A stretch of 64,000 bases of DNA from Citrus sinensis (lineage: Eukaryota; Streptophyta; Magnoliopsida; Sapindales; Rutaceae). The position numbers and the translations under genes were made by a program. Shown piece by piece: positions 724 through 52,926 of the stretch. Location: positions 24,435,501-24,499,500 of the forward strand of contig NC_068559.1 in assembly GCF_022201045.2 (NCBI RefSeq), read 5' to 3'. The notes beneath the pieces are model-generated. The model was given only the letters and a program-made list of their open reading frames with translations. It was not told the DNA's origin and made no database searches. Position 1 is the stretch's first letter. The number at the start of each line of letters is the position of its first letter.

Positions 724-2637
724 CTACAGACGATGAACCAAGACTTGAAGTCCATGTTGTGGGTTAATTGTGATAATGGCAACTGGTGAGTGAACATAAG
801 TTGGTGACGGGGTAAACTTGTATCGCTGCAGAATCATAGATAGTGCAATCTTGGCTTCTGTAATCGCATAGTTCAAGCCAACACAAGTCCGAGGTCCCAA
901 ACCGAAAGGAATAAATGCTGCCACGTTATTGTTTGTAGCTTTAGCCACTCCTTCTGCAAACCTCTCCGGCTTGAATAGGTGGGCATCTTCTCCCCAGATT
1001 TGAGGGTCATGGTGAACTGCTATTACTGGAATGGTTATATCCAAATTGCCTGGAACTATGAACTTTCCCAATTTGACTTCTTTTTGCACTTTCCTCAGAA
1101 TGTGAAAAGCTGGAGGATATAGCCTTAAAGTTTCATTGATAATCATACCAATATAAAAGGACACGGCACAGAAAGTTAATTCACATTTAAGACAAAATTG
1201 TTGAAATTTGATCGTTATAACTAATATATGGTGTGCTTACAATCTTTAACCGTGAGATGTTATCTGCGTTTGGACTTTGTTGACCAAACAATTCCTGGAC
1301 CTCCTTCCTTGCTTTGTCTTGCCAATCGTTGTGAGTTGCAAGAAGAAGAACTGTCCAAGAGAGCACGCTTGCCGTGATTTCCTGTCCAGCTACTTAAAAT
1401 GTTTTACATTCATCAATTAGATCGTCTAAAGATATTTTCTGATTCACATCCACATCATGATAGGCCATCATTAGTGCTCCTAGGAGATCATCTCCATAGC
1501 TAGCTACTTCTCCTGTTATCACATTTTTTTCTCTGTTCTCTACTATCTTGATGACAGAATCTCGTATATCTTGTTCAACTTTGTCTGACTCAGTATCATC
1601 GCGTGTTTTCACAAGTTTACTGCAACAATTATACACAAAAGGTGGTTCAGTTAAAAGATAATTTGGCTCTGGCAGCTAAAATTTATTGAAAAAAAAGAAA
1701 AGAGAAGGGAATCATAGTGACTAAGCATACCCAATTAGAGGAATTCTAACTTTGTACTCGTTTTTGGAAATGAAGAAAGCCAGTTTTGTTAACATATTGA
1801 AAATGTTCTCCCCTTCCAAGTAACTGCTTCCGAAAGCGGTTCTGGATATTATTTCTGATGTTAAAACCTTGAACTCTTTGTATGCATCAATCTCTTTGCC
1901 TTCGTAGTCTCTCCATCTCTCTAGCATCATCTCCACGCTTGCAATCATATCTGGAATCATACTCTACAAGAGAAGAAGAAGAAAAAAATCTTTGCATTAA
2001 TTTGCACAAAAACTGCTCATGTACTAATAGGCCAAATTATCATGCATTTACCTTCAAGGTCTCTACATGAAAAGCGTGGTTGGCCAGTTTCCTTTGCTTG
2101 AACCATTTTTCACCTTGGGTTGTTACAAGCCCGTCCCCCAAAAACTTCTTTATAAAATTTGTAGGCTCCCTTTTGGGGTATGCTCTGTCTTTATCGTTTA
2201 GTATCTCTTTGATAAGGTCAGGTTCAGCGACTACTAATTGAGGTTGAAGACCATTCCACATAAGGAAGTTTGTACCTTCACCGGATCATCAACGAAATTA
2301 TTGTAAAAATCTTCTTAATCAAATATAATAAAACCAAAATGTTTAGAAACACATTGGAGTTACCGTATAGCTTGATCCAAGAGTAAACCTGAGGATAGAC
2401 TCTGGGGAAGATTTGATGTGTCAATTCCATCGGACTGCTCATGATTTCATTTGTCATATTAATGATCTCTTTGGTGTTTCCATGAATGAACTTGTACGAA
2501 GGACCTTTGATGCCTTGTGATCTCATCTGAGACTGTGTCCAAATTGGATTCCACCATAGTTTGTTAATGAACCTGATAAGAACTAGAAGGAATAACAAAC
2601 AAAAATAAATTGATAGGTAGATAGTCACTGCCTCCAT
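724..2637 (-). pseudogene. CYP749A-like cytochrome P450 (gene A), broken
   Basis: CYP72-clan P450 with five exons on the minus strand: 2637-2364, 2275-2052, 1963-1731, 1619-1241 and about 1152-724. Their lengths (274, 224, 233, 379, 429) sum to the same 1539 bp as intact gene B. Visible are an N-terminal membrane anchor, a proline-rich hinge (IKGPSYKF), ExxR (NETLRLYPP), PERF, and the haem loop FGLGPRTCVG. Two lesions are seen. Codon 319, just before the I-helix motif, is TAA (plus strand 1394-1396) where gene B has TAC. The acceptor before the last exon is AT (1153-1154) where gene B has AG, and no nearby AG replaces it. The I-helix motif reads AGQEIT instead of AGxD/ETT. Translation would stop before the catalytic half, so I call it a young pseudogene. 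A sequencing error could explain one lesion but hardly both. Confidence 0.85.
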
Positions 2638-17311: not shown

Positions 17312-18319
17312 AAACAATTTCTTAGAAAGTTTACTTATCGGAGCTGGTGGATTTGGCAAGGAATGCAAGGGTTTCATGGACGGTGGCACCACCACTGATG
17401 TTATAAAGCGTGCCAATACATGTTCAAACTAAGGTCTAAACTAGTTCAGAACTGAAATCTCCTAGCTCTCGAATCTTCGACACCGACACCTCGTCTCTTT
17501 GATTGGTCACCATGTAGAAAACAAAGAAATGATTCTTGTTTATGATTACATGGCTCGGGGTACTCTACATGATCACCTCTACAATAACCACAAACCTCCA
17601 CTCTAGTGGATGTGGAGGTTGAAAATATGCATTGGTGCAGCGAGAGGATTGCATTATCTACGCACGGGTACAAGGAACATAATTATTCACCGTGATGTCA
17701 AGAGTACCAATATATTGCTAGATGAGAATTGGGTGGCTAAAGTTTCAGATTTAGGCTTGGCAAAAGTTGGCCCAAACATGCTGAGTTAATCAAACGCTCA
17801 CGTTAGCACAACCGTGAAAGGCAGCTTCGGTTACTTGGATCGAGAATACTACCGGCAAAACTGACGGAGAAATCTAATGTGTACTCATTTGGGGTGGTTC
17901 AATTTGAGGTACTGTGTGCTAGGCCTGCCATGTTACCAATGGCAGAAAATGAGCAAGAAGTAGAGCACGATAGGGTGAATTTGGCTGATTGAGCACTATG
18001 TTGTTATCAATCGGGCACATTAGGATTGGTCGTTGACCCATTTCTTCGAGGAAAGATTGATCCAGGATGTTTCAAAACATTCACGGACATTGCAAAAAAG
18101 TGCTTGGCAGATAGAGGATGTGATCGGCCGCAGATGGGTGATGTGTTGTGCAATTTGGGGTTGGCATGGCGGCAACAAGGGGCTGTTGATCATTATATTC
18201 AAGAGGACATAGTTTCTACTTGCGGTCATCCGTACATTGCCAACATAAATGGAAATTGTAATTCTGATATGAGTCCATGGGTAGAGTTCTCTGAGATCAT
18301 GATTCCGATTGGACGTTGA
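17312..18319 (+). pseudogene. FERONIA-like (CrRLK1L) receptor kinase domain, broken
   Basis: From about 17312 the frame reads NNFLESLLIGAGGFGKECKG (glycine loop GAGGFG), then [72 protein letters not shown] (catalytic HRD), VSDLGLAKV (DFG has become DLG), and VKGSFGYLDREYYR. The C-lobe continues from about 18026 (VVDPFLRGKIDPGCFKTFTD, CLADRGCDRPQMGDVLCNLG). At least six in-frame stops and a frameshift near 17865-18000. The GTLHDHLY and KGSFGYLD motifs mark the CrRLK1L family. No extracellular malectin-like domain or transmembrane segment is present; the retroelement's 3' end abuts it. The first 30 bases after 17281 are too eroded to assign. It ends about 80 bp before the large MULE. Confidence 0.85.
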
Positions 18320-18826
18320 TTTGAGAATGAGAGTTGGCTTTGTGTTACATCATCTATAGTTTTTCTGCTTACAATATTTTGTACTGCTGTCGTCCTTTTC
18401 CATAAGTTGGGAAATTTACAATAATAACCATTAAAGTTTTAATTTTTTTCATCTTAACCCCTTAAAAATATTTCTATCAACATTAGCTATTAAACAACTT
18501 TTGAGACCAAAACACCCCTCTCTCATCTCTCCCCCAACACTCCTTTTCACTCATCTCTCACAAACCGATCCAACTCCCATCATCGACGGCGACATCAACC
18601 CTCGTCGGCGGCAGCTCCATTTCTCACCGGCATTCGATCTACAACCTTCAACAAAATCTAGGTTAGTCATTTTTCTTATTTTCATTAATTTAAAATGAGA
18701 TTTTAGAATAATAATAGTAATAGCTTGAGAATAATGGTGGTGGTGTTTGTGGTGGTTGATGGTGTTTGGGAGTATTGTTTTTCGATTTTGTTGTGGCTTA
18801 ATTTTGGGGATGGAGAGGGAGGGGGG

Positions 18827-18883
18827 TAGGGCGCGCACGCGCGCCCATGCGCGCCCCACTGTCGCACCAAATCTGGTGCGACA
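18827..18883. repeat. GC-rich palindromes inside the left MULE end
   Basis: A GCGCGC-rich stretch (18827-18857) is followed by a palindrome, TGTCGCACCA then TGGTGCGACA (18860-18883). The core TGCGACA recurs in the right end of the element and in the second copy. Confidence 0.7.
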
Positions 18884-18961
18884 AAATTTATAGTGTTTTT
18901 TTTTAACGAGTATTTTTTTTCTGTAAACATAATGTAATAATTTTATAAATATTACAGATAC

Positions 18962-21900
18962 ATGGTGAAATCAAAATCACCGGATATTGATGTAGGCAAG
19001 ATGTATTTTAGTTATGCCGATCACTTTCCTGGTCGAATTTCGAGCATGTGTAAGTTATCTTCGGTCATAAAAGCCATCGAGGAAAAATTAACAAAGCGGC
19101 AGTTGACTATGTTCAAAAAGGATATATTTGGGCATTTCTTGGAGTGTCGAAGTTTTTCATTTAGTGGGGTAATTTTGCACAATCTTTTGCTGAGGCAAGT
19201 GGCCCATGAAGAAGATAGCCGTGAGGATCAGTTATGGTTTCAAATTGGTGAGCATTTGATTCGTTTGTCAATTGTCGAATGGTGCTTGGTTACTGGACTT
19301 TCATTTGGTGTTGATACCAATAAAAAAAATGATGAAATGGAGCAGAGGCTACGGAATACGTATTTTGGTGGTGTTCATCGTAAGATTAATGTGAAGGAAT
19401 TCGATGCAATATTTAAGGAGTTGAAATTCGAGGAAATGGACGATATGGACGCATTAAAGATTGCGCTGTTTTATTTTGCGGACCGAGTACTAAATGCAAG
19501 AAAAAATCACTGTCAAATCAATTTCGATTGGCTTGACCAAGTTGATGATACACAGTACTTCCGAAAGCGTCCATGGGGTCTGTTGTCGTGGGAAATGATT
19601 TACGAGAGTCTTGACAATGTACTGTTCGAGAAAGACGAGAAATTTAAGAAGACTCAGTTGAAAAATCCAGATCATAACATTGAAAAATATAATCTTTATG
19701 GCTTTATGTCTAGGGTTCAGGTGCGTTTTTGTTTTTGTTTATTAATAAGTTTTATAGTATTAAATATTTAATATGTTGTTTTATTTGATTTTTCAATTTG
19801 GTTGTTGTAGGCTTGGATTTACGAAGCAATTGAAGGGTTGCCATCAACATGGGTCGTCAAAATGAAGAATAAGATTCCCCGCATTTTGCAATGGAAGCCC
19901 ATGGCGTCTTCGAGAATCAATTTTGCGGAGGTTTATTCGTTCTTCAACGACGAATCTCGTCTTGTAAGTAATATGTATTACTTATTTTTTTAATTTTACT
20001 AAATTTAAGTTATGTATACTTAAAATTTTCAATTTAATTTATTGCAGGGGGACGTTTTACAAACTCTTGAGCCAAATTCAAAGGAGAGTAGCAGAAATTA
20101 TTGGGTCTCTGTGAAGGATTACTTGCCAAGCATTCCAGGCTGGGTTCTTAAGATTGGTATAATCTAAGTACTCAAAATTTTTTAATCGAAATTTTTGACT
20201 TTTCATTTAATAATTTTAAATGATACTTTATACAGCACCAACCTTCAATCAACGTGATGCTGTCGGTTACAAGGCAATCAGACGAGCATGACGACATACC
20301 AAACCCAATACCAGAGCAGCGTCATGACACTTATGAGGATGAGGTGGCTGTTGATGACCACCAGCAGCGTCATGACACTTATGAGGCTGTTGATGACCAC
20401 CAGCAGCGTCATGACACTTATGAGGCTGTTGATGACCACCAGCAGCAAATAGACAACTCTGATGACGCACGAGATTCTGAGGTTATAAATAATATACGAT
20501 ATTTTTTCTTTATAAATTTTTTTTTGTTATTCTAAAGTTTTCTGTTTTTTCTTTTGTAATAGTCGAGGACAAAGCAGTTTAATGATTACATACGACGACG
20601 GCTGGATAAGATTGATCGTAACGTGTACGAAATAAAGTCAGAATTAAAAGATTTTAAAGAAACCGTAGTTGGCTTCATCGACACATTTGCTAAACGTCCA
20701 AATAAGGATTCTCCCACTGCAGGCTCGTATGCAGTAAGCAAATTTTTATTTAATAATTATGTTCGTTTAACTTTTAATTTGATAGTTGTTTAATATGTTA
20801 TTCTCGGCGAATGGGCAGGCCCCGGATGACTATGGAGTGTATACTAACGTGGGCAATGAAAATTTGTCTACGCCCACGTCATTGTATAGTTTCTACGGGG
20901 ATGTTAGTGGAGAAAGCGTGCAGGTGTTCTCTGAGGTGCCTCCCGGCGTTAGTAAGTTCGGCCGCGCGTACATACCGTCGTATGTTTATAACAGTCCTTA
21001 CATGATTCCTCCAATCAGGCGAAGACAGAACGTCCGGCCTTTGCCTCGACTCCAAATCTTGGAGCATGCGATTGACATGAGTATGACTGTGAAAATAAAT
21101 CCACTGAGAGGATTGAAGGACTCTAGTATGTTTGCTGAGTTTGATCGATGGTTCACTGGTGATAGCAGAGTCCGCCGGAGAGTCCAGCACCCGCGGTCAT
21201 TCTTTCAAATAATCTTGGGGACAGCTTCGATGGGATGGCTAGGCGATGAGGTATTTATATTTTCGTCGTGATGTATACTGTTGTGGATTTGTGTATAAAT
21301 TTTTTTTTAAATCGTAATATTTCTGTTTCTCTACAGCATATTCACGAGTATCTCCGCTTGATTAGCGAGAAAGAACGGCAGTATCCAAATGCCTTACTCC
21401 AACGTGTCACACATACTGACACATTTTTTTGGGTAATGTGCCGACAGAACTTATAAATACTATTTAATTTTTTTTAATTATTGCCTTTAAGTTTTGTTAA
21501 TTTATGCATTTCTTGGTTATCTATGTACTAGGTGTTCTTAAATCGGTTATGGAACAACGGGGATTGTGCGGTCGATTCATTAGTATTCGACGACCGCATG
21601 AATAGTTATCTTTGTGGGCGACAGCACACAATGTCCAAATCAATGACGGATGTCGATATGGTATATATTTTATTGCATTTTATATATAAGTTGTCGATTT
21701 TTCTTAGTTGTTTTTCAATTTCATAGATAACGAACATGTTTTTGAATTTTTATATACAGTTACTCATCCCTGTTAACTTGGACGGCGAGCATTGGGTACT
21801 GGCACGAGTAGACTTTCGGAAAAACAAAGTCTGGATTTATGACTCATTAATCACATGCCGCGACGACAAAAGATACAGGTTGAAATTCAAGCCACTTGAA

Positions 21901-22158
21901 GTTATCTTCTCTCGATGGTTGGAATATGTTGGGTTCTACAACATCCGACCTGAGTTGCGGAGTGCCGACCCCTGGAAAGTTATCGTAGTTAGGAGCACGC
22001 CACAACAGGAGCCCGGAACTGGCGATTGCGGTGTTTTTGTATTGATGGTTACGATGTATTTAATGTTCGGGCTTGGATTGGAGTTTAACGCTAGTCATGT
22101 CGAGTACTTTAGAAAGAAGATTGCGGTTGACATATTTAATGACGATATTGTATTGTAA
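18962..22158 (+). CDS. DUF1985 / Ulp1-like cysteine protease ORF of the MULE
   Basis: Model exons: 18962-19720, 19811-19963, 20048-about 20166, 20236-20481, 20563-20733, 20819-21250, 21337-21432, 21532-21660, 21760-22158. The N-terminal part is a DUF1985 domain (VILHNLLLRQVAHEE, RLSIVEWCLVTGLSFG, DALKIALFYFADRVLN). The C-terminal exon is a C48/Ulp1 protease fold with the catalytic set His (GEHWVLARVD), Asp (IYDS), Gln (TPQQ) and Cys (GTGDCGVF), all present. Between them lies a low-complexity region with 39-bp repeats. Proteins of this family in MULEs resemble SUMO proteases; their role in transposition is not settled. The junction at 20166/20236 does not keep frame with GT/AG alone, so either my exon border is wrong or there is a frameshift. 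Converges with the transposase, 150 bp between stops. Confidence 0.8.
20325..20445 (+). repeat. 39-bp in-frame tandem repeat in the DUF1985/Ulp1 ORF
   Basis: CAGCGTCATGACACTTATGA plus GGCTGTTGATGACCACCAG is repeated, giving protein repeats RHDTYEAVDDHQQ. The first unit carries a 6-bp insertion (adding two residues, DE). Units are nearly identical, so the expansion is recent. It lies in the disordered linker between DUF1985 and the protease. Confidence 0.9.
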
Positions 22159-22308
22159 ACCGTTGTAGTAATTTGAATGTTTAAACTTGAATTTTTTTTT
22201 TAATTTACGCACTTAAGTTTATATAATTTTAATGCTCACATTTTAATATTTAAAATAAAATAAAGTTTTATGACATATAATTGTACAATACACAAAACAC
22301 AATAACAA

Positions 22309-24941
22309 CTAACTTCGAGTCGACGCAATGGGATTCTTACATCGCTTACGATTATGGCCCAGTTCATGACACCGCCCGCATCTTACAGTCCGCCTGTTAA
22401 CGTCCTCGCCAGCCGAGGGTATTCTGAGCTCTTTACGACGGCCAGGTGGTGGTGTCTCAACTGGTGGGTATACTTGCATCTCCACCATTTCATCTGGAAT
22501 TTCCCAATCAGCCACATCACCAACTGGCTCTACTGGTTGTGCATAAGCCATCACCAACGATTCTGTAGTGTAAAAGTCCGAGCATAGGTTAATAAAACCC
22601 ACCCGGTGTGTTAGACACGCCGCAATTGCATGAGCACATACAAGCTGATCAAGCTGAAACACTCTGCATGTGCAAGTTCTCTTTTGCAAGTCAACCAAAC
22701 CTTCCTTAAGCCCACCGCCTACCACTTGAAATCGATGTGGAGACACCGGCCGAACTATCATTCTTTCAACTATAGTTCTTCTCTCAGTGACTATTTCATC
22801 CGCCCATGTTGCTAGCCGAGTAGTCATTGATTCAGCCACAATTTTTCTATCATAAAACCATTGCTGCATTGTTTTTCTAAAGTGATCAACAAGATGAGTT
22901 ACAGGAAATTTTTGAGGTTCCTGTATGAAAGAATTAACACTCTCCACGATGTTGGTGGTAAGTATGCTGTACCTCCTACCTTCAAACTGAGACCTTGCCC
23001 AATTACACGTACCGATATTATTTTCTAGGTAATCAGCCGCACCCGAGTGGATCATCCACAACCCTTCAAGTTGTCTCTTAAATTCCTCGTGGCCATATGC
23101 TTTTGCTGCATTAATAAAGGTAGGCTCAAATTGATCCCAAAGAGCTTTGGACATTCTAAACTGAGACTTAATGTTACCTTTGACGTGGTAAAAACAAACG
23201 TCATGACTTGCATTGTGAAATACTTTAAGAACGGCTCTCCTTATGCAGTACATCGATCAGAGATAATTACCAACTCAGGTCTATCGCCAATCACTCCGTA
23301 TAACTTCATCATAAACCATTCCCAAGCATAATTGTTTTCTGAATCCATGATCCCAATGGCTAACGGATACAATTGATTGTTACCATCAAGACATGTTGCC
23401 ACGAACATGCTTCCACGATATAGTCCCTTCAGATGAGTACCATCTACAGCAATGACAGGCCGAATGTACTGCATAAAACCCTTGATGGAAGATCCGAGTG
23501 CTACAAAATAGTACAAGAAATTACCATCTCCATCCTGCTCGAGGTGAGTGACTGTACCCTCATTAGCTGTAGTTAGTACGTGAGAGTATTTAGGGAGTAA
23601 GTTGTATGACTCTACAGGGTTGCCTCGAACTATTTCAAGACCAACTTCTCTTGCCCGATATGCCTGCTGGTATGTTAACTGAACATCGTATTCTTGTTGC
23701 ATATATGCTCTTATGTCATTCGGAGTATAAATCCTCTTGTCTTGAATATATTTTTCTACGATAATATGACTGACAACCCGAGTCCTTACTTGATGACGTC
23801 CATCAACCAATACCTCATTATGACAAGTGTGTACATTGTCAATTCTCTTCACCACCCAAGGAACATTTTGCTCGTTCGAACATCTAGTTGCTCGAATACG
23901 CCATTTACATGATTCTGAACAACAGTGAGCCTCGAAACGTGTCGTAGTAGACCGTGCAATCTTGAAATCAAACTTATCTCTAAAGGCAACCTTGCGTAGT
24001 TGTAATATAAACTCATTCTTCTCAGCAAATAGCTTACCCACACTGATATCATCTGAATCACAACTGCTAACAAAGCTTGGAGCAACCATGTTCGAAGGCA
24101 AAGTTGGAGCAAGACTTGTAAGGGGGTCAATTCGCCTTCTCGATCGAACCATAAAAGGACTAGGTCTATTGCCTCTGTTATTCACAGGAGTATTGTCTTC
24201 ACACTCATCGTCGTGCTGAAACGACGAAACATTCGAAGGACCGGCTCCTCCATCATCACCATCATTATTGAAATGAGTGCCCCTCGTATTATTAGAAGGT
24301 TCTGCACAAACATTATCCCCCTCTGTCTCATGATGAAAATCATCATTGTCCCGAAAATCATTATTGTGATACGGAGAATACCGTTGCTCCAACGACGTCG
24401 TTATTGGAAATATTGTTGCTCCAACATCCTCTAACGTAACGCCGTTATCATCAATGTTGTCATAATTGTCGTGGATTGGAGAGTAATATTGCTGCAGCGA
24501 TATTGTCCTTGGCAACACCTCTTCATCATTATCGGGGCCAGACATATTTGCTCTAAACGAAGTTTCTGTATCGACATGTGGCTCAATACCTTCGCTCGAA
24601 ATTCGAGGTGATGTGGTCACGAATATAGGAATGCATCCAAAATTGGCTACGTCGGATGCCATATGCAACACAACCCTCACCATTTCATCATCAAATATAT
24701 CCATGGGCAGTGCACATATACGATATAATGTGTTACTAGACCTCAAAGTTGTCTTCATTGTAATACTATATTTATTAGGGTTTATTTGTAACACCTCGTA
24801 TACTCTTGCCAATAACTGATCAAACAGACAATTTTTCCCAACAAAAAAAGCTCGATTTTTACCATTCACATACTCCATACGGCCATCCTCTAATGTCTTC
24901 CACCAACCATCGTAACACAATTCAAGTACAACTGAATCCAT
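22309..24941 (-). pseudogene. MuDR/MULE transposase, single frameshift
   Basis: Two overlapping frames, 24941-23241 (566 aa) and 23253-22309, form one protein of about 880 residues if one missing base near 23243 is allowed for (GCATAAGG where the frame needs one more base). Order: N-terminal PB1/MuDR-N-like part, acidic linker, MuDR zinc-binding DNA-binding domain (CCSESCKWRIRA ... HTCHNE), MULE catalytic domain with Asp about 500 (AVDGTHLKG) and Asp about 562 (IISDR), a CFYHVKGN motif after the break, SWIM finger (CTCRVFQLDQLVCAHAIA), and a CCHC knuckle near the C-terminus (CGRCHELGHNRKRC). It would bind the TIRs and cut DNA. The shift falls directly behind the second catalytic Asp, so the protein as read is inactive unless the base is a sequencing or assembly error. 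Confidence 0.88.
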
Positions 24942-25017
24942 TAAGCCTGAAATTATAAAAAAAAAATTAATTGGATCCGGATCAAATTAATACAGTTTTA
25001 ATAAATCTCTAAGGCTT

Positions 25018-25104
25018 GGTGCGACAGGCTGCCTGTCGCCCGAAGCTTGGTGCGACAGGCAGCCTGTCGCCAGAAATTTTTGGTGCGACAGGCAGCCTGT
25101 CGCC
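25018..25104. repeat. Three TGCGACAGGC / GCCTGTCGC palindromes
   Basis: Near-identical 23-bp palindromes at 25018-25040, 25049-25071 and 25082-25104. Each is GGTGCGACAGGC followed by (A/T)GCCTGTCGCC arms. They sit between the transposase start and the right TIR. They may bind an element protein; that is inference. Confidence 0.85.
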
Positions 25105-25126
25105 AGATTCACCCACGACTCAGTTA

Positions 25127-25418
25127 AGCAAGTTCAGAAAATAACTCATACCACTAAGTGATGCCGATTAGTGTTGGATTCGGATAGATTATGATCGGAT
25201 TTCACCTTTACTGTTGTCTTTTGCCGTCGACGTTGGTTGATGATTAAGCTGCGTTTGGTTTGATGATATGGGAGCAAGTTCAGAAAATAACTCATACCAC
25301 TAAGTGATGCCGATTAGTGTTGGATTCGGATAGATTATGATCGGATTTCACCTTTACTGTTGTCTTTTGCCGTCGACGTTGGTTGATGATTAAGTTGCGT
25401 TTGGTTTGATGATATGGG
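25127..25418. repeat. 146-bp direct tandem duplication in the MULE right end
   Basis: AGCAAGTTCAGAAAATAACT at 25127 recurs at 25273, and the copies are nearly identical through GATGATATGGGA. As it lies upstream of the transposase start (24941, minus), it may duplicate promoter or 5' leader sequence. Confidence 0.9.
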
Positions 25419-25567
25419 AGAAAGATTGTTGCTTTTGGTTTGTAAAAAAGGGTAATTTGGGGAGAAAGACTTGTGTTTGGCTAATGTTGATAGAAAAAAG
25501 TTGAGAGGGTTAGTTGTGAAAATGATAAAATATTTATGGCTATTTTCGTAAATTTCCCCCATAAGTT

Positions 25568-48410: not shown

Positions 48411-49320
48411 AAACATCCTTGTAGGTGCCGTATACCAAAGGCACTAAACTATGCGATGTGTCCATTTTTTCAAACAAAAGAAGTATTTTGAATAAATAAT
48501 AGTGTGTTCACTTTCCGAACTAGAGAATCAAAATCATTGACAGCGTTTACTTCGTAAAATATAATTACAAATCAGAATCGGGATCGTGAGGTCCACCACA
48601 ATTTGAAAATGAGGAATGAGAGACTCATTCCCAAGGAGTGAGTGGGAATGAGTTTCCCATTCCCATGATTGACCATTTTGCCCTCCTCCAAAATAAAAAA
48701 TGTATACTTTTTCCTCATTTATAATTAATTAATATATTAATATTATTAACAATAATTATTAATAACTATAGTTTTTGAATAAATAATAGCAATAATTAAT
48801 ATATTATTATTATAATTAATTCATATATCATTACTAATTAATGGAAAATTTACGAAAATAGCCACAATATTTTTACATTTTTTAAATTTAATCCCTTAAA
48901 CTTTTTTTTATCATAACTAGACAAATACTAATATTTTGGACCAAATTGCACTCCTCACTTTCAACAATTTTTTAAATAATGCCACTCTTACAATATTCAA
49001 CACTCTCAACAAACCTTAATACTCTCAATACCCTCAACAAACCTCAACACTCTCAATAAATCTCAACACTTTCAGCATAACAGAAGTATAAACTCATCAA
49101 TTTGACAGCATCTTAAAGGTTAGTCTATGTTATTACACAATATGAATTTTTAATGTATAAAGCCTAAGGTATAAGTTCAAAATTGATGTAGATTTTATTG
49201 TAAATGTTGTTATTCTTCATTTATAAAGTAAACAATTTGTTAAAGTACTTAGATTTGAGTTGAGAAATCAAAAAAATCATTGAAAACGGTAGAATCTTGA
49301 GTTATAAATGAAACCGAAGT

Positions 49321-49475
49321 TATGTGCGATAGGCTGAATTATGTGCGACAGGCTGCACGTTAGGTGCCTGTCGCACAAAAAAGTACAGTAGTATTTATGT
49401 GCAACAGATTCTTGTATGACAGGCACTTGTCGTCCAACTTGTTGCACATAATTCAGCCTGTCGTACAAAATTACA
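49321..49475. repeat. TGCGACA-type palindromes, MULE copy 2 end
   Basis: Several eroded motifs (TGTGCGACAGGC, GTGCCTGTCGCAC, GACAGGCACTTGTCG, CAGCCTGTCGTAC) match the palindromes of the first MULE. More occur at about 49640-49700 and 51750-51920. Confidence 0.75.
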
Positions 49476-49781
49476 GTACGTGTGATGGGTACTTTTTGGA
49501 GGTTATAACATGGGCTACATGTGTCCTTTTTAGCATATAATATACCGTTTCGAAGCTTGCAACGAGACGAATCAAACCACAACCTTTTTCTCCTGTCTCT
49601 CCCATAGCCAAACCAAACATTTATCTTAATTTAAGTGCGACAAACACATGTTACACATAAAGTTGCCCATCACACATATTCTTTGTTTGTGCGACATTCG
49701 ATAAAATGTTTCACATATTCACTTTATCATGTTTTGTAATGTGTACTCACATTTATTTTTAAAAATATTTTTCAAGTTTAA

Positions 49782-50720
49782 TGGATTTAGTTGTGCTTCA
49801 ATTATAGTTGGTGGGAGACATTAGCGAATAAGCGTATAGAGTATGTGAATGGTAATAATACAATTTTTTTTTTTGTTTGGAAAGATTGTTCGTTTGATTA
49901 ATTTTTGGCAAGAGTTTGTGAGGTTTTGTAGATAAATAGTAATAAATATAGTATCATGATGAAGACAACTTTGAGGTCTTGTAACACAATTTATTGCACA
50001 TGTTCACTACTCATTGACATATTTAATGACGAAATGGCCAATGTTGTATTACATAGGGCCTCTGATGTAGTCAATTATAGATGCATCCTTATATTTATTA
50101 CTACATCTCCTCGAGTTTGAAACCGAGATGTTAAGCCACTTATAGAAACTAAAACTTCTTTTAGAGCAAACGTCTTTGTCCTTAATATTACCACAAATGA
50201 TGTCGTTGCAGCAACGTTACTCTTCATTCCACGACAACAACGACACCATTGATAACAATAGTATTATGCTAGCAGATGTTGAAGAAGATGTGTTACCATT
50301 AATAACATCGTTAGAACAACATTACTCTTCCTTCCACAACAATGATTTCTGCAACAATAATGATCATATTGATGACATTGGCAACACATAAGCATATAAT
50401 GTTTTTGTAAAACCGTATAATAGTACAACAGACAATCATTTCAATAGCTCAACTCATGATAGGTATGTCGGTTGTTCTGATATTCCTATAAATAATGAAT
50501 TTGAGGGTCAATACGACATTTTTATTGATAATAGAGACAACCAACTGATTCCTCAAGTGGCCCATTTGAGAAGGAAGATAACAGTTGACCACCTCTTAAA
50601 TCTTACTCCAATTTTACTTTCAAACTTAGTTGCTCCAGACTTAGTTAGAAGTTGTAGTTCTGATGATGTTGGTTATTTTCGAAAAAGCAAATGTCTTCAA
50701 CTTTAAGATGTGAGAAATCT
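49782..50720 (+). pseudogene. MULE transposase N-terminal remnant
   Basis: Aligns by eye to the N-terminus of the first MULE's transposase: MDLVVLQL, RVCEW, then after frameshifts MMKTTLRS..., and the linker with SLQQRYSSFHDN, SLEQHYSSFHNNDF. Many stops. It breaks off before the zinc-binding and catalytic domains. Confidence 0.8.
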
Positions 50721-51067
50721 GCTTGTTTGTTTTCATGGTCCACTGCGATGGTATCTCATCAATCATTTTGAAAAGTCAAGCTTACAACAAGCAAAGTTAA
50801 AAAATAATTAAAAAAAATAACTTTGTGAATTATTCATAAGTACAAAACTTACTAACTTTGATATATATTTTTTTACCAACCCACTTGAACCCTATGATTG
50901 AAGGCATAAAGATTGTGTTTCTTAATATTATGAGAAGAAATTTTCAAGGCTCCTTCTTAAATTTATTGGCTTTTTTATTCAATACATTGTCAGTATTGTC
51001 ATATATCATTTTGCCATGATAAACGATCACATAGATAACTTCGAATGGTCTATACCATTAACATAAT

Positions 51068-51659
51068 TCATTATCTAAAAATCAGCTTGTCTATTATCTT
51101 TTCTCTTATTCAGTATCCTATATGCAAAGTAATACAATGCGATTTTTAGGGCATCAATGTGCTCCATAGCACGAAAGTTCAAAGCGCAAAATCTAGCGTC
51201 TAATTTTTTTAGATTCAAGTCTTTAGACCTACCACCAAAGTACTTATCAAACATCCTATGATGCGCCTTCATATTTTTTAGTAAGACATTCAGACCATTG
51301 GAAAGCCTTGTAATTAGGCACCACTCTCCAATCGATAAACGTATCAAGTGTTCTCTAATTTGAAATCATAATTGATTTTCATTGACTTCTTTATGTGCTA
51401 TTTGCCTAAGCAATAGGTTGTGGATTATAACACAACTGAATGCATAGCTATCCAAATCCATAGCGTGCCAAAAAATATCACTTTTGAACAACAACAACTG
51501 TCTGCACCATAGCTTACGCCGGATAGTTTTCACAACTATTTTAAATTTTGATGTCTTTATAATATGGCACGAGAAATGATCATTTAAGCATAACTTTATT
51601 ACGCCTGACTTCTTCTTAGGTTCGGGTGGATTACGCTTTGCTAACTTAGTTTTCGCCAT
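51068..51659 (-). pseudogene. DUF1985 remnant of the second MULE
   Basis: Reading from 51659 gives a Lys-rich start, then CVIIHNLLLRQIAHKE. After a stop near 51360 it gives HLIRLSIGEWCLITRLS and HIDALKIALYYFAYRILNKR, matching the DUF1985 domain encoded at 18962-19720. No Ulp1 domain follows. Confidence 0.85.
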
Positions 51660-52926
51660 CTATATGAAATAACAATAATATAAAATAAAAAGTATTTATG
51701 AAAAAATAAAAATGGTCATGTGTTTTGGAAACAGATTGTATAAAAAAATTGGTGTGACAGGCACATGTCACACTAATTTTTGTAAGACGGGCACCTGTTG
51801 CATAATAAATCAGATTTGATTTAGTGTGATGGCTCGCCTCTCACACAAAAATGTCAATGGTGTGATGGGCTTCGTGCGATGGGTGATGCCCATCATGTGA
51901 ATCTTCGCACGATGGGTAGCACCCATTACATGAAGTTCCTAGCAACGCACCAACAACACCAATAACCTCCTCCACCACCACTAACAACACCAATAAATAC
52001 TTAATCCTCCAGCACCGCCACCACCAACAAAACATATAGCAATAGCAACATACAACCACAACACAATGCAAGAATAAAATAAAGCATATATTTGAAGTTG
52101 CTAACCTAGAGTTTTTGAACTTTAATTGTTGATTTTGGGAATCTTGATTGCTATTGGACGTGATTTCAGTGGGATTGGTGTTGTTGGACGTGATTTCGGT
52201 GAGATTGACCACTGATGATGGACTTCGATGTTGCTCTAAGGCACCGGCAGTAGGTGAGAGATTTCGGTGAGAGAGAGATTTTAGTGAGCTTGGGTGAGAA
52301 TGACAGTGGTAATTTGGCCCAAAAATTTGGGGTTTGGCTAGTTTTGATAGAAAAAAACTTGTGTGACTATTTTTGTAATTTGCTAAACTTCTGTGGTTAT
52401 TTTTGTAAATTTTCCTTAATTAATTAATACAATTATTACTATTAATTAATATATTATCAATAATTATTAATAATTATATTTTTTGAATAAATAATCACAA
52501 TAATTAATATTATTATAATAATTAAATAATATACTATTATAATAATTATTAATAATTAATTTATATATTATTATTAGTTAATTAATATGATTATTACTAT
52601 TAAATAATATATTAATATATTATTAACAATAATATCTTAATAATGATAGTTCTTGAATAAATAATCACTATAATTAAATTATAGAATAATAATTATGACC
52701 ATAATTCATTAAGTATTTTTTTTGTAATTTGTTACAATCTAACTCATTCTGATTCCGATTAAAAAATAATGTAAAAATATTAATAACAATCCAACTCATT
52801 TCACTTTTGATTCCTACAGTTCAAATAAATAACTTATTCTGATTCTCATTTCCTATTTTCATTCCAGTCCATTCACATTCATACTCATTTTGATTTCAGT
52901 TCATTCCAATTTTAGTTTAGTAAACG

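Follow-up and report, generated by a model that had tools for sequence, protein, structure and literature searches.

The 64,000-bp window of Citrus sinensis contig NC_068559.1 analysed here (positions 24,435,501 to 24,499,500 of the forward strand; coordinates below count from its first base) carries a 7,150-bp Mutator-like element (MULE) at 18409..25558. It holds a transposase gene and, facing it, a gene that joins a DUF1985 domain to an Ulp1-type protease. Judged from sequence, this element is a doubly broken member of a family that probably encodes a VANC/KIU-type anti-silencer, with palindromic GTGCGACA arrays as its candidate target. The element itself is real: an Ulp1-carrying MULE with terminal inverted repeats. 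Its parts, in order, are as follows.

18400..18408, unstranded: left target-site duplication CCATAAGTT, 9 bp, perfect
18409..25558, unstranded: the MULE, delimited by its ends, the duplications and sibling alignment
18409..18487, plus strand: left terminal inverted repeat, 79 nt, 73% complementary to 25480-25558
18859..18883, unstranded: left motif pair TGTCGCAC/GTGCGACA of the window copy
18962..22158, plus strand: DUF1985-Ulp1 (KIU/VANC-like) gene, nine predicted exons, all phase 0, 829 codons in the window copy
18962-19720, plus strand: exon 1, with the DUF1985 domain at amino acids 76-215, homologous to VANC21 (PDB 9lnj/9lnk)
19811-19963 and 20048-20152, plus strand: exons 2 and 3, from sequence and siblings
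20236-20481, 20563-20733 and 20819-21250, plus strand: exons 4, 5 and 6, from sequence and siblings
20315..20446, plus strand: 39-bp tandem repeats in exon 4, encoding repeated ...DHQQRHDTYEAVD...
21337-21432 and 21532-21660, plus strand: exons 7 and 8, from sequence and siblings
21760-22158, plus strand: exon 9, a Peptidase_C48 domain with H, D, Q and C (catalytic part 21760..22155)
22309..24941, minus strand: MULE transposase with a single frameshift near 23241-23256, leaving open pieces of 566 and 315 codons
25014..25108, unstranded: right motif array, three 31-33-bp units with GTGCGACA, 5' of the transposase
25127..25418, unstranded: 146-bp tandem duplication in the right non-coding end
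25480..25558, minus strand: right terminal inverted repeat, pairing with 18409-18487
25559..25567, unstranded: right target-site duplication CCATAAGTT, 9 bp, perfect

The two ends, which start GGGAAATTTAC..., match each other as imperfect inverted repeats, and the genes between them are arranged tail to tail. The minus-strand gene encodes the DBD_Tnp_Mut (PF03108), MULE (PF10551) and SWIM (PF04434) domains, all above the Pfam cut-off, and the plus-strand gene encodes DUF1985 (PF09331, 7.5e-20) and Peptidase_C48, with all four catalytic residues (H, D, Q, C) present. The original prediction had thus correctly read the perfect target duplications, the long inverted ends, the SWIM transposase, the facing DUF1985/Ulp1 gene and its catalytic residues. 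Target duplications of MULEs are usually about 9 bp; they agree at all 9 positions in the window copy and in two sibling copies, L069 and L070, measure 8 bp in a third sibling, L071, and are imperfect in a short derivative, L003. A pre-insertion empty site, originally proposed as a check on the window element, was not found in the genome searched (299.7 Mb in 11 contigs).

The window copy has two lesions, one in each gene. Compared with L069, its transposase lacks one net base and has no further indel, so the single missing base originally described stands for that gene. It does not stand for the element as a whole, since intron 3 of the Ulp1 gene no longer has its splice donor: positions 20153-20154 are not GT, whereas GT is found in all three whole siblings (L069, L070 and L071, the three closest by Ulp1 exon). 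Use of the next GT as a substitute would shift the frame, and a model that took a GT four bases downstream as the donor gave stops and was corrected by the siblings. The nine-exon structure is a prediction from the window sequence and sibling alignment. The lost donor rules out a single-lesion reading and is a further break in the Ulp1 gene, the outcome originally named as a refutation, and it contradicts the description of the element as near-autonomous; neither protein can probably be produced in full from this copy.

As anticipated, the ends and genes of the element recur elsewhere in the genome, and intact relatives exist. Both genes are open in two of the three whole siblings, L069 (832 codons in the Ulp1 gene) and L070 (877 codons), in which all eight introns of the Ulp1 gene are GT..AG. 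In the third, L071, the Ulp1 gene is interrupted by three internal stops and the transposase is broken. L069 and L070 are 99.86% identical and yet are flanked by different 9-bp duplications, AAACAGTTT and ATTTTTTTT, which indicates a recent move. The family numbers at least 40 members by left end (40 scored, 529 candidates), at least 150 by Ulp1 exon (150 scored, 294 candidates), at least 77 by the first part of the transposase (77 scored, 941 candidates) and at least 150 by DUF1985 exon (150 scored, 514 candidates). A DUF1985 exon lies within 2.5 kb of 30 of the 40 left ends, a pairing made with near-clade DUF1985 places that leaves out most of those under about 63% identity. In samples of 30 loci each, 25 keep exon 9 open, 23 the DBD-DDE part of the transposase and 17 its second half. 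The family is thus large and recently mobile, and because it is large the window copy is no special source.

The idea that this copy gave rise to non-autonomous copies nearby is likewise not supported, since the one other related element found in the window, at 48843-52415, shares no more than 65-68% DNA identity with it across the gene fragments. That element is degenerate, spans 3,573 bp and has flanks that match at 8 of 9 bases; a DUF1985 piece (51078-51659, minus strand, one stop) faces a transposase piece (49781-50667), and it has its own GTGCGACA units, one of them in a ATGTGCGACAGGC setting. Elsewhere, L003 (bases 851-1712, minus strand) is a derivative of 862 bp from which the genes are gone, while both ends and two motif units remain. 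On the left of the window element, an open reading frame at 17993-18319 stops about 80 bp short of the insertion; we take it to resemble a receptor kinase C-terminus, and this adjoining 108-aa frame has no Pfam match.

A VANC/KIU-type anti-silencer is the most likely identity of the facing gene, a reading suggested by the match of its DUF1985 exon to Arabidopsis VANC21, whose structure is solved, and by the published DUF1985-Ulp1 fusions known as KIU. When exon 1 is compared with PDB, VANC21 (9lnj, 9lnk) is the sole chain sequence found at E values up to 1, at 3.4e-5, with residues 14-222 aligned to 31-242. Exons 1-3 of a sibling match VANC21 at 2e-4, and the second match, at 0.4, is at chance level. 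The protein of an intact sibling contains both C48 (9e-30) and DUF1985 (2.1e-18). The Ulp1 part matches SENP1 in PDB (E 1.8e-12); here a GWLGDE stretch aligns with NWLNDE of SENP1, although this stretch on its own is not significant.

The candidate target of such a protein is a short motif repeated outside both genes. In the window copy, L069, L070 and L071, all matches to GTGCGACA or TGTCGCAC lie 5' of the start codons and none lies between the two starts. Left and right counts are 2 + 3 in the window copy, 15 + 7 in L069, 30 + 10 in L070 and 2 + 2 in L071. Array length therefore changes faster than the rest of the element, given how nearly identical L069 and L070 are. Each array unit is a palindrome of 31-33 bp, apart from a 41-bp variant in L070. 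On both sides of the window copy, the distance from motif to start codon falls to about 80 bp, and the motifs may lie inside 5' introns.

The same distribution holds more widely. Measurements were made on 26 of 30 transposase loci; L046, L066 and L068 are without a start-codon mark, L051 is without a right end, and the right end of L042 is doubtful, having been placed by a weak match. GTGCGACA occurs 126 times in 14,094 bp of 5' non-coding sequence, and not at all in 44,148 bp of coding sequence or 24,906 bp of flank. At least one match lies 5' of the transposase in 25 of the 26 loci, with right-side counts from 0 to 14. Furthermore, GTGCGACA ranks top in an unbiased 8-mer count over eight non-coding stretches from five elements. 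Genome-wide, the GTGCGACA palindrome is found 136 times at up to one mismatch and a GTGAGACA palindrome 149 times, and the reversed pattern of each is found 0 times.

The form of the motif follows relatedness in part. Loci L072, L073 and L075, whose transposases are about 73% identical, have 5, 7 and 7 core matches, here in a different setting, TTTTGTGCGACAG. The zero-mismatch GTGCGACA form lies near 8 Ulp1 loci, all among the 91 that are at least 73% identical to the window exon, and near none of the 59 others. The zero-mismatch GTGAGACA form lies near 19 Ulp1 loci, all among the 47 in the 60-69% band, and near none of the 103 others. This placement covers zero-mismatch palindromes only, 38 of the 136 for the GTGCGACA form and 39 of the 149 for the GTGAGACA form, and no scored Ulp1 exon is near 27 of the 38 or 11 of the 39 places. 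The right array of L074 has GTGAGACA 14 times and GTGCGACA once; L074 and L076 appear to be the two sides of one element on C5, in which a one-base motif switch has spread through one array only. The idea of one motif per clade is too simple, as this element carries both forms.

Evidence that the protease is maintained comes from ratios of nonsynonymous to synonymous change (dN/dS), obtained from Nei-Gojobori counts over pairs that are not independent, with bootstrap ranges. For exon 9 the ratio is 0.184 (bootstrap 0.11-0.27) over 30 loci picked by exon 9 itself, a choice that biases it low, and 0.215 (0.11-0.37) over loci picked by transposase, of which 27 of 30 were usable. The DBD-DDE part of the transposase gives 0.20 (0.11-0.32; 30 loci) and its second half 0.21-0.28. 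The Ulp1 exon is thus as constrained as the transposase, at about 0.2. Values are similar for exon 7 (0.23) and exon 8 (0.22) and higher for exon 5 (0.49). The linker evolves fast, at about 0.7: exon 6 gives 0.69 (0.48-1.04; 29 of 30 loci) and exon 4 gives 0.82 over four loci only, or 1.53 for its three open loci. The catalytic residues are largely kept across 30 distinct loci (H at 29, D at 29, Q at 30, C at 28), and in the 27 transposase-picked loci exon 9 is open in 24, with D in 27, Q in 27 and C in 26. Moreover, the distances between loci in exon 9 track those in the transposase (Mantel r 0.80; none of 2000 permutations reached this value). Together, the ratios and this agreement indicate that the protease part is kept by selection along with the transposase.

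The mechanism considered most likely is as follows. Intact siblings would make the DUF1985-Ulp1 protein as an anti-silencer, whose DUF1985 domain and repeat-bearing linker may recognise the GTGCGACA palindromes around the two promoters, or in the 5' introns, of their own family. DNA methylation would be lost at the arrays, allowing transposase and anti-silencer to be expressed, and the family would spread with other elements not being woken. The least certain step is the one assigned to the Ulp1 domain, which would most likely act at these sites as an isopeptidase on a host chromatin protein that carries a SUMO-like conjugate. A stronger version is doubtful: that Ulp1 is an active isopeptidase which, guided to co-evolving palindromic arrays, removes SUMO or a similar tag from silencing factors of the host, so that the transposon would encode a sequence-addressed deSUMOylase able to erase silencing.

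Several observations weigh against an anti-silencer of this kind that targets the arrays. Structure prediction for exon 1 gave a poor model (mean predicted local distance difference test score, 46), so the VANC21 homology rests on sequence. The DUF1985 exon, the presumptive recognition part, is weakly constrained (dN/dS 0.46, 0.29-0.80; 7 distinct copies). When five copies are compared like for like, the ratios are 0.40 for exon 9, 0.36 for the second half of the transposase and 0.64 for exon 1; restricted to the three open copies, the exon-9 ratio becomes 1.16, from very few changes. L054 has no right-side core match even though the tested part of its transposase is open, and one core match falls within the inner gene part of loci L009-L038 (30 loci, 3,429 bp each), in L017. 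The left stretch of the L074 element, L076, has GTGCGACA 5 times and no GTGAGACA. KIU proteins are judged unlikely to act on SUMO in the available text of a review (PMC6117577). Finally, the arrays could equally be transposase-binding sites.

This last explanation is the strongest rival. It holds that the arrays are subterminal sites bound by transposase and needed in cis for transposition, with the Ulp1 gene serving another task. Subterminal repeats bound by transposase are known in other DNA transposons, the arrays stand at both ends of the element, and two motif units persist in the gene-less L003. However, the right side carries anywhere from 0 to 14 core matches among 26 copies, and the left side 15 in L069 against 30 in L070, although these two are 99.86% identical. 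Variation this free is easier to reconcile with a recruitment site that tolerates changes in dose than with a site needed for transposition. The approach of the window-copy motifs to both start codons, perhaps within 5' introns, also fits poorly, and we consider the explanation rather unlikely overall. Less likely still is a neutral origin of the arrays, in which slippage has spread palindromic minisatellites through 5' introns or leaders. The strong palindromes and the fast change in length speak for it, but the identical 8-mer recurs in left and right stretches even though the spacers differ, and in elements with proteins no more than about 59-73% alike.

A different challenge concerns the gene rather than the motif. 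As proposed for captured gene fragments generally, the Ulp1 gene might be a transduplicated passenger, useless to the element, and its patchy presence across MULE families has been read as repeated capture or loss (PMC2528002, in the text available). A dN/dS of about 0.2 on two differently chosen sets of loci, the kept catalytic residues and co-inheritance with the transposase make this highly improbable. The preferred reading remains that of a VANC/KIU-type anti-silencer directed to its own family's arrays.

The comparison with known systems bears on what is new here. Ulp1 genes in MULEs have long been known from grapevine, melon, rice and Arabidopsis, some with inverted ends (PMC2528002), and the window family joins these. 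According to the accessible part of a 2026 review (PMC13317346), VANC genes of the Ulp1-bearing kind (KIU) likewise lower the methylation of related elements of their own, although what the Ulp1 domain contributes is unknown. What a protease-like protein does for a transposon, originally left open, is therefore partly answered: the DUF1985 homology to VANC21 and the published anti-silencing by KIU point to a function for the gene, and the question stands for the Ulp1 domain. The GTGCGACA arrays 5' of both genes are apparently new; no description of them was found in searches limited to open-access papers, which is weak evidence of absence. The window family makes it testable why plant transposons keep an Ulp1 protease, as it offers copies with both genes open, a constrained protease and a candidate DNA address in the GTGCGACA palindromes, while a sister clade with a one-base motif variant on one side provides a built-in specificity control.

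Among individual systems, the grapevine and melon Ulp1 MULEs similarly combine a MuDR-type transposase with ULP1 and terminal inverted repeats, in both orientations, but their available description mentions no motif arrays or VANC homology (PMC2528002). The KAONASHI (KI) MULEs of Arabidopsis also carry an Ulp1/C48 gene (KIU) opposite to mudrA at high copy number. Available accounts describe them as non-TIR (terminal inverted repeat) elements, a definition that the 79-nt ends of the window family contradict, and no assignment to KI MULEs was made. The C48 domain shares H-W, D, Q and C with SENP1/Ulp1 SUMO proteases, and differs in the doubt over SUMO noted above. As far as the available text goes, the VANC proteins of Arabidopsis VANDAL elements carry DUF1985, have variable parts with tandem peptide repeats, and bind short non-coding motifs of their own family, which then lose DNA methylation. 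The targeted motifs expand by tandem repetition, introns included, and the anti-silencing role of transposon-encoded VANC21 is published (PMC5735166). The window gene resembles them in its VANC21-homologous DUF1985 and its linker with 39-bp coding repeats, and the short tandem motif in the non-coding stretches, a candidate target only, follows the same pattern. In contrast, the VANDAL motifs are YAGTATTAY and AGTTGTCC/AGTTGTAC rather than GTGCGACA, the main text of PMC5735166 does not mention an Ulp1 domain, and VANDAL ends are described as degenerate in the available part of PMC10398659.

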